A stretch of 64,000 nt of DNA from Struthio camelus (taxonomy: Eukaryota > Chordata > Aves > Struthioniformes > Struthionidae): NCBI RefSeq assembly GCF_040807025.1, contig NC_090968.1:7429906-7493905 (forward strand), given 5' to 3'. Below the pieces are notes generated by a model. That model was not told the origin of the DNA. It worked only from the letters and a program-made list of their open reading frames with translations, and made no database searches. The translations under genes were made by a program, and so were the position numbers. Shown here one piece after another: positions 17,697 to 19,605 of the stretch (position 1 is the first letter of the stretch; every line of letters starts with the position of its first letter).

Positions 17697-17823
17697 GCTC
17701 CCGCCCGGGGTCCTGGTGCTCCGCGGGCAGCCACAGCATCCTCTCCTCCAGCACGTCCCCTCCAGCCTGCGCTGGCGGGGCAACACAGGCTCCTCCGGGG
17801 GGGGGGGGGACGTCCAGCTCCAG
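17697..17823 (+). pseudogene. IDO relic, candidate exon 2
   Basis: A stretch readable as PARGPG...TASSPP...LAGQHRLLR resembles the intact exon 2 (PAPYGP...[15 protein letters not shown]), with insertions. It ends in gacgtccagctccag, compared with cgcgtccaccag. A G run now breaks the frame. Similarity in such GC-rich DNA may be chance. Confidence 0.3.
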
Positions 17824-17956
17824 GGGGGACGGGCATCGCGCCCTCAGCACTCCCCGGTGCCCAGCGGTAGCCACGCTGCATGCCACCTCCACAGCAAACA
17901 CCAGCACCCAAATTACACGGCGCACCCAGCACGCCGCTGCTGCCCAGGCCGCGGAG

Positions 17957-18066
17957 CCCCCTGCTCTGAGCAGGACACCGACCGCGCACACACCGACCGC
18001 TCCTCAGCCCGCCTCGTCCCCTGGGAGCTCCCCGGGACGCACAGCCCGCCGCCCCAGCAAGACGTC
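17957..18066 (+). pseudogene. IDO relic, candidate exon 3
   Basis: After an AG comes nine bases, then ctgagc, as in the intact exon 3 (atgcctcag then ctgagc). The codons for ALVL/ARLV-like residues (gcccgcctcgtc, ARLV as in recalled human IDO1) follow after 35 nt, against 36 nt in the intact exon. That spacing suggests a one-base loss. The rest of the exon is eroded and no good donor is seen. Confidence 0.42.
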
Positions 18067-18409
18067 GGGTCTCGGCCAGCGCCGACCCCCCTCTCCCCGC
18101 TCCCCGCGCCCCCCCCAGCCTCAGCGTCCCGCCTGCAGCCCCGCGGAGGACCAGCGTTAGCCCCGCTGCCCAGCTGGGCCGCTCTCGGGTCCGGCGGCAC
18201 AGACGCCCCACGGAGACCCCAGCGCCGGCAGCGTGCACCCGCGCCCCCGGAGATGCCCCCCTTCCCCAGCGGCCCTGGCGCGTCCCCGGCCGCAGCAGGC
18301 CAGCCGCTGGCGCGGGAACGCCCGGGGCGACCTCCTGCCTGCAGAGACAGAGCAGCCGGACTGCATGAGGACGGCCCGGGAGCTGCCCCCCGACGGAGGG
18401 ACGCCACCT

Positions 18410-18543
18410 CCGCAGGGCATCGCTGCCCCTTCTCCCGGCGCAGCTCCCCCCGCGCCCGCAGCCGGCCCCAGCGCTGGCAGCACCTCGCGGCGCCCGGGGC
18501 CGGCCGCCGTCCCGGCCCACGGCAGGAAGCGGGACCCCCGCGG
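18410..18543 (+). pseudogene. IDO relic, candidate exon 4
   Basis: One frame reads GIAAP near the start and AHGRKRDPRG at the end. Compare IAVP and ANWKKKDPNK in recalled human IDO1, and [10 protein letters not shown] in the intact gene here. The middle does not align and would need about 21 extra bases. The donor position has gcaggc instead of gtaaac. Confidence 0.3.
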
Positions 18544-18822
18544 GCAGGCAGAGTTCAAGGCTTCGCCACAATCCAGCCGCATGAATCCCTCCTCCCGTCG
18601 CTCCAGGCCCTCGTCCCGCCATCGCCACCCATCCGGTGCACCGCGCACCCAGCACCTCAGCCTCCTCGGGCTCCGCGCCCGCGGCAGGTCCACCGAGCGA
18701 CACCTTTACGCAGTGCTGAGCGCAGACAGCATCCCCGCACACGGCAAACAGCACTGCTGCCGTCCCCGAAGCACCACGGCACGGCACTGACCTGCTCCAT
18801 GGGACCCTGTTTCTCCCCGCAG

Positions 18823-18921
18823 GAACCCGGATGTCCTCTTCTCCGTCCCTGGTGCCGACAGCATCAAGGCGCCCTCCTCGCGTCCGTGCTCGTCGAGGCA
18901 GCGGCTGCACTCGGCGTCAAG
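18823..18921 (+). pseudogene. IDO relic, exon 6 with one-base deletion
   Basis: Acceptor gtttctccccgcag is intact and the exon ends gtcaag before gtctga. Frame 1 gives ENPDVLFSVPGADSIK; near 18869 the match moves to the next frame, ALLASVLVEAAAALGVK. The intact exon 6 (23956-24055) starts and ends at the same codon phases and is 100 nt, so exactly one base is missing here. The residue at the Phe163 position of human IDO1 would be Ala. Confidence 0.82.
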
Positions 18922-19261
18922 GTCTGAGCGGAGTGGGACCGGCTGCTTGCAGCAGCGCTGAGCCGGCGATGCTTCCCGCCCGGCACCTGCACCCCGGGAT
19001 GGGGCTCTGCCGGGCACAGACGATGGCAAAGGGGTCCCCCCACCCCAGGCCCCCGCCAGCCACAGCGGGGACACGTTTCATACTGCCACGCCAAGACCGC
19101 ACGGGGCAAAACAACTCTGCACTGGAGAAACCGGCCCCTCACTGAGCCGGGGCAGTACGGGGAAGCTCAGCCACGAGGGAAAGCAGGTCAGCCGGCACGT
19201 CACACCGCTCGCTGCAGGGAGGCTCCCACGATCCTGGAGTGCTGCAGTGCCAGACTGCCGG

Positions 19262-19530
19262 CACCCCAGGGCCCCGAGACACCCTGCAATCCCGCCTGAC
19301 ATGGCCCCAAGACACCCGAAATCCTGCCTGCTGCATCCCTGAAAAACCCTGCAATCGCGCCTGGCACAACCCCGAGAAACCCTGCAATCCTGTACGCTGC
19401 ATCCCTGAAAAAACCCTGCAAACGAGACCAGCGCAGCCCCAAGACACCCCACAATCTCACCCAGACATGGGCCCAAGACACCTCGCAATCCTGCCTGGCA
19501 CGGCCCCGAGACCCCCTGCTCCCAGCCTGA
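19262..19530. repeat. 33-nt minisatellite, about 8 copies
   Basis: Imperfect units of 32-34 nt built on ccccgagacaccctgcaatc followed by a variable ctgcctggcacgg-like part. Units start at about 19274 and end before 19530. It lies in the presumed intron between relic exons 6 and 7. As 33 is a multiple of three, the minus strand reads as an 11-residue repeat, which is an artefact. Confidence 0.85.
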
Positions 19531-19564
19531 GATGTGACCCTTTTCTGCCTCTGCTCCTTCCCAG

Positions 19565-19605
19565 GCAATCCCGGGTATTTCCAAGGCCATCTCAGAGCCC
19601 GACCT
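19565..19605 (+). pseudogene. IDO relic, start of exon 7
   Basis: A strong acceptor (ttttctgcctctgctccttcccag) leads into codons for AIPGISKAISEPD. The intact exon 7 also starts gcaatc (AIVRAINAL), and recalled human IDO1 has VIPTVFKAM. Similarity fades after about 13 codons and no donor is found at the expected place near 19682. It lies 643 nt after relic exon 6; the intact gene has 591 nt there. Confidence 0.5.

Follow-up and report, generated by a model that had tools for sequence, protein, structure and literature searches.

The IDO2 locus of the ostrich

The window, meaning the whole 64,000-nucleotide stretch of DNA that was analysed, comes from Struthio camelus (ostrich), a palaeognath bird, and contains zero N. 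It carries an intact IDO2 gene, a synteny marker on either side of that gene and, between the upstream marker and IDO2, the decayed exons of a relic that is probably derived from IDO1. The features are as follows.

5668–11641, plus strand: exons of a gene of the ADAM family, encoding disintegrin and Cys-rich parts and, in the last exon, a transmembrane-like segment; the upstream synteny marker
16656–16745, plus strand: exon 1 of the probable IDO1 relic, without start codon, one residue missing, ending at the exon 1 boundary
18506–18544, plus strand: doubtful candidate for the tail of relic exon 4 (last 13 codons), ending at the exon 4 boundary
18823–18921, plus strand: exon 6 of the relic, with both splice borders, the phase of IDO2 exon 6 and one base missing
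19270–19519, plus strand: degenerate tandem array of ~33-bp units inside intron 6 of the relic (between its exons 6 and 7)
19565–19682, plus strand: exon 7 of the relic, with an intact cag acceptor; the first 20 codons (19565–19624) are recognisable and the remainder is decayed
20401–29105, plus strand: intact IDO2 of 412 aa, with 10 coding exons and GT-AG borders at every intron; exon 6 at 23956–24055
48425–48742, plus strand: TCIM, the downstream synteny marker

The complete IDO2-type gene that the initial annotation had described downstream of the relic is thus present in full. Isoform X2 of ostrich IDO2 in the database is identical to the product of the window gene except that it skips exon 2, a 96-nt exon whose removal is in frame.

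The relic (16656–19682) lies directly upstream of IDO2 and on the same strand. This is the position of IDO1 in the mammalian order, where IDO1 immediately precedes IDO2 and TCIM lies further on. The initial annotation had put the dead gene between ADAM2 and IDO2 and had given TCIM as the gene after IDO2 in mammals; of this arrangement TCIM is confirmed downstream (by tblastn with human TCIM, at 76% identity over 106 aa), and upstream an ADAM-family gene is confirmed, but not its identity as ADAM2. The solved structures that it matched best were ADAM22 and snake metalloproteinases, with a hand-joined query whose last 25 residues had been taken in error from another open reading frame (640–882). 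Since this gene is on the plus strand here and human ADAM2 runs on the strand opposite to IDO1, it may be another ADAM paralogue or may mark a local inversion.

The interval that holds the relic is repeat-rich, with a GC content of 61–71%. Between the ADAM gene and the relic (12000–16400) the sequence switches from G-rich to strongly C-rich and carries several short tandem arrays, the GC skew being +0.145 at 12001–14000 and -0.525 at 14001–16000.

Recognition of the relic exons

Exons were sought in the 8.4-kb interval 12000–20400 with placental IDO1, IDO2, mixed and turtle-weighted IDO1 profiles, the last of which was built with knowledge of exons 6 and 7 and of the place of exon 1. Two proteins that are named 'synthetic construct' and look like reconstructed ancestors were weighted into profiles, P0242 (IDO1) into the turtle-weighted IDO1 profile and P0241 (IDO2) into the IDO2 profile that was compared with it; both were left out of the trees. 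Scores were compared with shuffled sequence and with a real-DNA null of 500,401 strand-counted bases, drawn from 20 stretches elsewhere on this contig, from the window outside the interval and from the interval read on its reverse strand; this null (0.41–0.64 for the 20 stretches) is less GC-rich than the interval of the relic.

The clearest segment is exon 6, for which the initial annotation had claimed intact splice borders. Both borders are there, the acceptor (...ccccgcag) and the donor (gtctga) standing at places homologous to those of the resident IDO2 exon 6, and the exon measures 99 nt against 100 in the resident exon, so that one base is missing. On either side of the break it reads NPDVLFSVPGADSI and GALLASVLVEAAAALGVK, where turtle IDO1 has NLDTLFSFPGGDSS and GFFLVSLLVEVAATPGLQ. 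The score was 47.3 bits with the turtle-weighted IDO1 profile, reached in 0 of 200 dinucleotide shuffles of 12000–20400, versus 35.4 bits with the IDO2 profile; in the run with the placental IDO1 profile the values were 40.1 bits and, for the IDO2 profile, 26.5 bits, neither of them reached in 60 shuffles. The maximum of the exon 6 profile in the real-DNA null was 20.9 bits. This exon has three states in common with IDO1 that differ from bird IDO2, namely LFS, a D before S and an S before xLVE.

Exon 7, which opens at an acceptor homologous to that of the family, joins the borders and phase of exon 6 in placing the relic within the IDO family. It starts at 19565 with AIPGISKAISEPDLPSPHAA, the turtle IDO1 counterpart being AIPTIVKAVLRQDLCSVHTA, and its recognisable part scored 23.5 bits, a value reached in 2 of 200 shuffles over the 8.4 kb and in 0 of 200 over 18922–20400, with a profile maximum of 20.0 bits in the real-DNA null. 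Under the IDO2 profile the score was 14.7 bits, and the register of that match is at odds with the start of the exon. Here too two states, KA and DL, agree with IDO1 and differ from bird IDO2. The placental IDO1 profile had its best exon 7 match elsewhere (6 of 60 shuffles), and the mixed profile found the exon at its present place (1 of 60).

Exon 1 reads SVAHGDRSQTLQTQETFPIAED-GLLLPDPL in the tblastn alignment, opposite SRAHSERLQHL---EEFHVSEECGFVLPDPL in turtle IDO1, and its donor has been lost, the bases after the boundary being CTCAG. It scored 22.7 bits on 16677–16745 (0 of 200 shuffles; maximum of 19.5 bits in 500 kb of real DNA), and because the IDO2 profile gave nearly the same value, 21.9 bits, this exon does not tell IDO1 from IDO2. 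The placental IDO1 profile picked the same place at chance level (20 of 60 shuffles), and the IDO2 profile did so at 2 of 60. When turtle IDO1 was run by tblastn against 12000–20400, as the initial annotation had recommended, the best plus-strand matches were exon 6 (E 0.016), exon 1 (E 0.021) and exon 7 (E 0.049), followed by a match with E 0.76. IDO similarity therefore extends beyond exon 6, to exons 7 and 1, which is the opposite of the second outcome that the initial annotation had named as refuting.

Between exons 1 and 6 the sole segment standing out is the candidate exon 4 tail, with 20.6 bits; this score was reached in 2 of 200 shuffles within 16000–18822, in 18 of 200 over 12000–20400 and once in the 500-kb real-DNA null. 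The scan covered every exon but exon 5, which at 5 codons is too short. Exons 2, 3, 8, 9 and 10 were scanned with all four profiles, and none rose above chance in 12000–20400 with the turtle-weighted profile and 200 shuffles. Two candidates were rejected: one for exon 3 near 14970 (1 of 60 shuffles) and one for exon 8 at 14293 (mixed profile, 0 of 60) are both in the wrong order, and with the turtle-weighted profile these two exons gave counts of 30 of 200 and 43 of 200 shuffles, respectively. Of the several weaker exon-like segments that had been claimed in correct order, exons 1 and 7 hold, in order and on one strand, exons 2, 3, 8, 9 and 10 do not, and the exon 4 tail is doubtful. A start of the relic at 17697, as initially proposed, found no support, the furthest good segment being exon 1, outside that interval.

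The composition of the interval, GC-rich and full of repeats, is the kind in which chance resemblance might arise, and the exon 4 tail may be such a case. As an account of the whole relic, chance has a probability that we regard as negligible: the shuffle counts for exons 1, 6 and 7 are 0, 0 and 2 of 200, no equal score for these exons occurs in the 500 kb of real DNA, the three lie in order on one strand, and for exon 6 the idea is already refuted.

Loss of coding capacity

Disabling lesions are the missing base in exon 6, the missing exons and the lack of a donor where exon 1 and exon 7 should each end; the recognised exons contain no stop codon. As a single assembly was used, the frameshift in exon 6 could be a sequencing error, which the missing exons could not be. 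From the expected end of exon 7 to the start codon of IDO2 there are 718 nt, and in this space there is no counterpart of the last IDO exon, an exon that in the resident gene scores 117.5 bits by itself. Because exons 8–10, which encode the C-terminal half, were not above chance in 12000–20400, the relic is classed as a remnant of IDO1 and not as an IDO1 enzyme. Judged from these lesions, it would make no enzyme.

A search of the 1.45-Gb assembly with PF01231 gave 6 matches, all in the resident IDO2 (exons 2, 3, 4, 7, 9 and 10), and no further IDO gene; as the search missed the resident exons 1, 5, 6 and 8 as well as the relic, it argues against a second intact gene but not against weak relics. 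A peptide search with exon 6 matched the relic and IDO2 exon 6 only. These results bear on whether the gene might still be alive, with its remaining exons hidden or with exons 6 and 7 used in an alternative transcript. Exon 6 does keep both splice sites, the recognised exons are free of stops, and some bird genes are reportedly hard to sequence, but the window has no N, exons 8–10 are detected neither before IDO2 nor, by PF01231, elsewhere, and exons 1 and 7 lack donors at their expected ends while exon 6 is frameshifted, so we regard a living gene as extremely improbable.

Among database proteins, the 120 matches listed for the window IDO2, all from birds by name, have an IDO2-type exon 6. 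A query built around relic exons 6 and 7, which also held 46 neutralised exon 4–5 positions, was scored against 8000 candidates; of the bird proteins among the best 120 of 296 matches, 22 of 22 have an IDO2-type exon 6, and the same best 120 include no bird or crocodilian IDO1. This absence is weak evidence, since in the ranking, which placental IDO1 heads, the turtle (Pelodiscus) IDO1 that the query did retrieve is itself 115th among the best 120 of 296, below 18 bird IDO2 entries. With a human-mouse IDO1 consensus as the query, the matches listed were 119 entries that are IDO1 or unnamed and one IDO2, with no named reptile. The 29 unnamed entries that were checked are each at least 80% identical to a named mammalian IDO1.

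Phylogenetic placement

Each of the 94 branches of a fixed tree was tried as the attachment point of exons 6 and 7 together (46 sites). The tree was built from 48 full-length proteins, comprising 26 IDO1 (human, Pelodiscus, Antechinus and 23 other placental sequences), 21 IDO2 and one fish protein. In the full-length tree the intact turtle IDO1 (Pelodiscus, P0264) joins mammalian IDO1. All three models (LG, JTT and WAG) gave the base of IDO1 as the best position of the relic, three branches being tied within 0.04 units at this optimum under LG. The best bird-IDO2 branch was worse by 12.0 (LG), 15.2 (JTT) and 12.7 (WAG) log-likelihood units, so that the tree recommended in the initial annotation, and there described as damaging to its claim if the segment fell inside bird IDO2, gave the opposite outcome. 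With 10,000 replicates every one of the 35 bird-IDO2 branches had an AU value below 0.05 (highest 0.033; 0.026 for the best of them, under LG), and in runs of 1000 replicates 1, 0 and 3 of the 35 (LG, JTT, WAG) lay above 0.05, up to 0.074.

Other placements were less distant. The root and the IDO2 stem were 4.4–5.7 units worse and were not rejected (AU 0.14–0.23), and neither was the turtle-IDO2 branch, 8.2–11.8 units worse (AU 0.06–0.15). Under LG the deficits were 4.4 units for root and IDO2 stem (AU 0.20) and 8.2 units for the turtle-IDO2 branch (AU 0.14). Exon 6 by itself prefers IDO1 and does not reject bird IDO2 (AU 0.18). Ten proteins trimmed to these 46 sites served as controls: each of the nine amniote sequences came out on the side to which it belongs, with turtle IDO2 on the IDO2 stem, and the tenth, the fish protein, was placed at the IDO1 stem. 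Against the root the test is weak, as the intact turtle IDO1, when cut to these 46 sites, also fails to reject it (AU 0.09).

The placement bears directly on whether the relic arose by partial duplication of IDO2 on the bird or reptile line and then decayed. It adjoins IDO2, exon 6 alone leaves bird IDO2 standing and both exons leave the turtle-IDO2 branch standing, and in plain tblastn exon 6 is matched slightly better by turtle IDO2 (E 0.006) than by turtle IDO1. Against this origin are the deficit of at least 12–15 units on the bird-IDO2 branches and the lack of a tblastn match between exon 7 and turtle IDO2 (E 5.3). Simulated neutral decay of ostrich IDO2 exons 6 and 7 (to 52–60% identity, nine settings of 4000 runs each) reached the IDO1-minus-IDO2 score of the relic in 1 of 36,000 simulations, and 182 of 36,000 did so for exon 6 alone. 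At the DNA level exon 6 of the relic agrees with its resident counterpart at 60 of 100 aligned positions, and blastn of the interval against the IDO2 gene gave no clear match (best E 0.02), which together exclude a recent copy; the relic neither groups inside bird IDO2 nor shares DNA with it as a recent partial duplicate would. An IDO2 duplicate made on these lines is accordingly very unlikely in our judgement.

Somewhat less improbable, though still unlikely, is an old duplicate from before or at the IDO1/IDO2 split, either a third IDO copy or a copy of stem IDO2, which would not be an orthologue of IDO1. It draws on the small deficits of the root and IDO2-stem placements and on shared states such as AIP at the start of exon 7, which the fish protein and the two synthetic-construct proteins carry as well and which may therefore be ancestral. 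It requires an extra gene, however, and it sits poorly with the IDO1-type states of exons 6 and 7 that bird IDO2 lacks and with the location of the relic directly upstream of IDO2, the place that IDO1 occupies in mammals.

Proposed origin and loss of IDO1

The upstream relic is, with good probability, a unitary pseudogene of IDO1, an identification that rests on the sequence of its exons and on its position. These data suggest that IDO1, still present in mammals and a turtle, also existed in bird ancestry and was lost later. IDO1 and IDO2 would then have stood in tandem, in that order, in an ancestor shared by turtles, birds and mammals, and the function of IDO1 would have been lost on the line to the ostrich. 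In the simplest history a deletion would have taken exons 8–10, a step suggested by the distance of only 718 nt between the expected end of exon 7 and the start of IDO2, with the remainder decaying neutrally. Two propositions of the initial annotation are thereby supported: that an IDO1 in the mammalian position existed in ostrich ancestry and was lost leaving a fossil, for which the placement at the base of IDO1 and exons 1, 6 and 7 speak, and that the duplication predates the split of birds and mammals, which rests more on the intact turtle IDO1 (P0264) than on the fossil.

Mammalian IDO1 depletes tryptophan and restrains T cells, and its control is interferon-driven. One may speculate, at long odds, that IDO1 was still functional on the bird stem, that a single deletion of the catalytic half sealed its loss, and that IDO2, whose start the deletion brought within ~700 nt of IDO1 exon 7, may have taken over regulatory DNA from the dead gene; provided that this control depended on interferon, as it does in mammals, birds would then have re-wired tryptophan-based immunity onto IDO2.

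An earlier view, as given in PMC4238401, held that IDO1 arose within mammals because chicken and zebrafish have a single IDO2-like gene. PMC4191572 reports a putative IDO1 in soft-shelled turtle and in medaka and, on the strength of these genes, proposes an older duplication with losses in several lineages. The ostrich fossil agrees with the latter view. The pre-mammalian duplication was thus already proposed there (PMC4191572), and the new element is an archosaur relic that stands where mammals have IDO1. The open-licence literature, a scope outside which most subscription papers fall, yielded no description of an IDO1 relic from a bird or other archosaur, and a term search of the main text of PMC4290089 returned no IDO1, IDO2, indoleamine or ADAM2. 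A readable relic in a bird, at the place of mammalian IDO1, is direct evidence that the gene was lost and not absent from the outset, and it provides a fixed address in crocodilians and other birds at which the loss of IDO1 can be dated.

Comparison with known systems

Mammalian IDO1 resembles the relic in the IDO1 states of exon 6 and in its place directly before IDO2, with TCIM farther downstream; it differs in that it works, whereas the ostrich copy is frameshifted and its exons 8–10 are undetected. The resident IDO2 belongs to the same family and has the same exon 6 borders and phase, but a derivation of the relic from bird IDO2 by copying is disfavoured. The putative IDO1 of Pelodiscus sinensis (P0264; PMC4191572) was the best of three tblastn proteins for exons 1 and 7 and lies in the IDO1 clade, the base of which takes the relic; it is an intact protein of 407 aa, whereas the ostrich copy is broken and most of its exons are gone. 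With unitary pseudogenes in general the relic has in common an orthologous position, decayed exons and the lack of a working copy found elsewhere.
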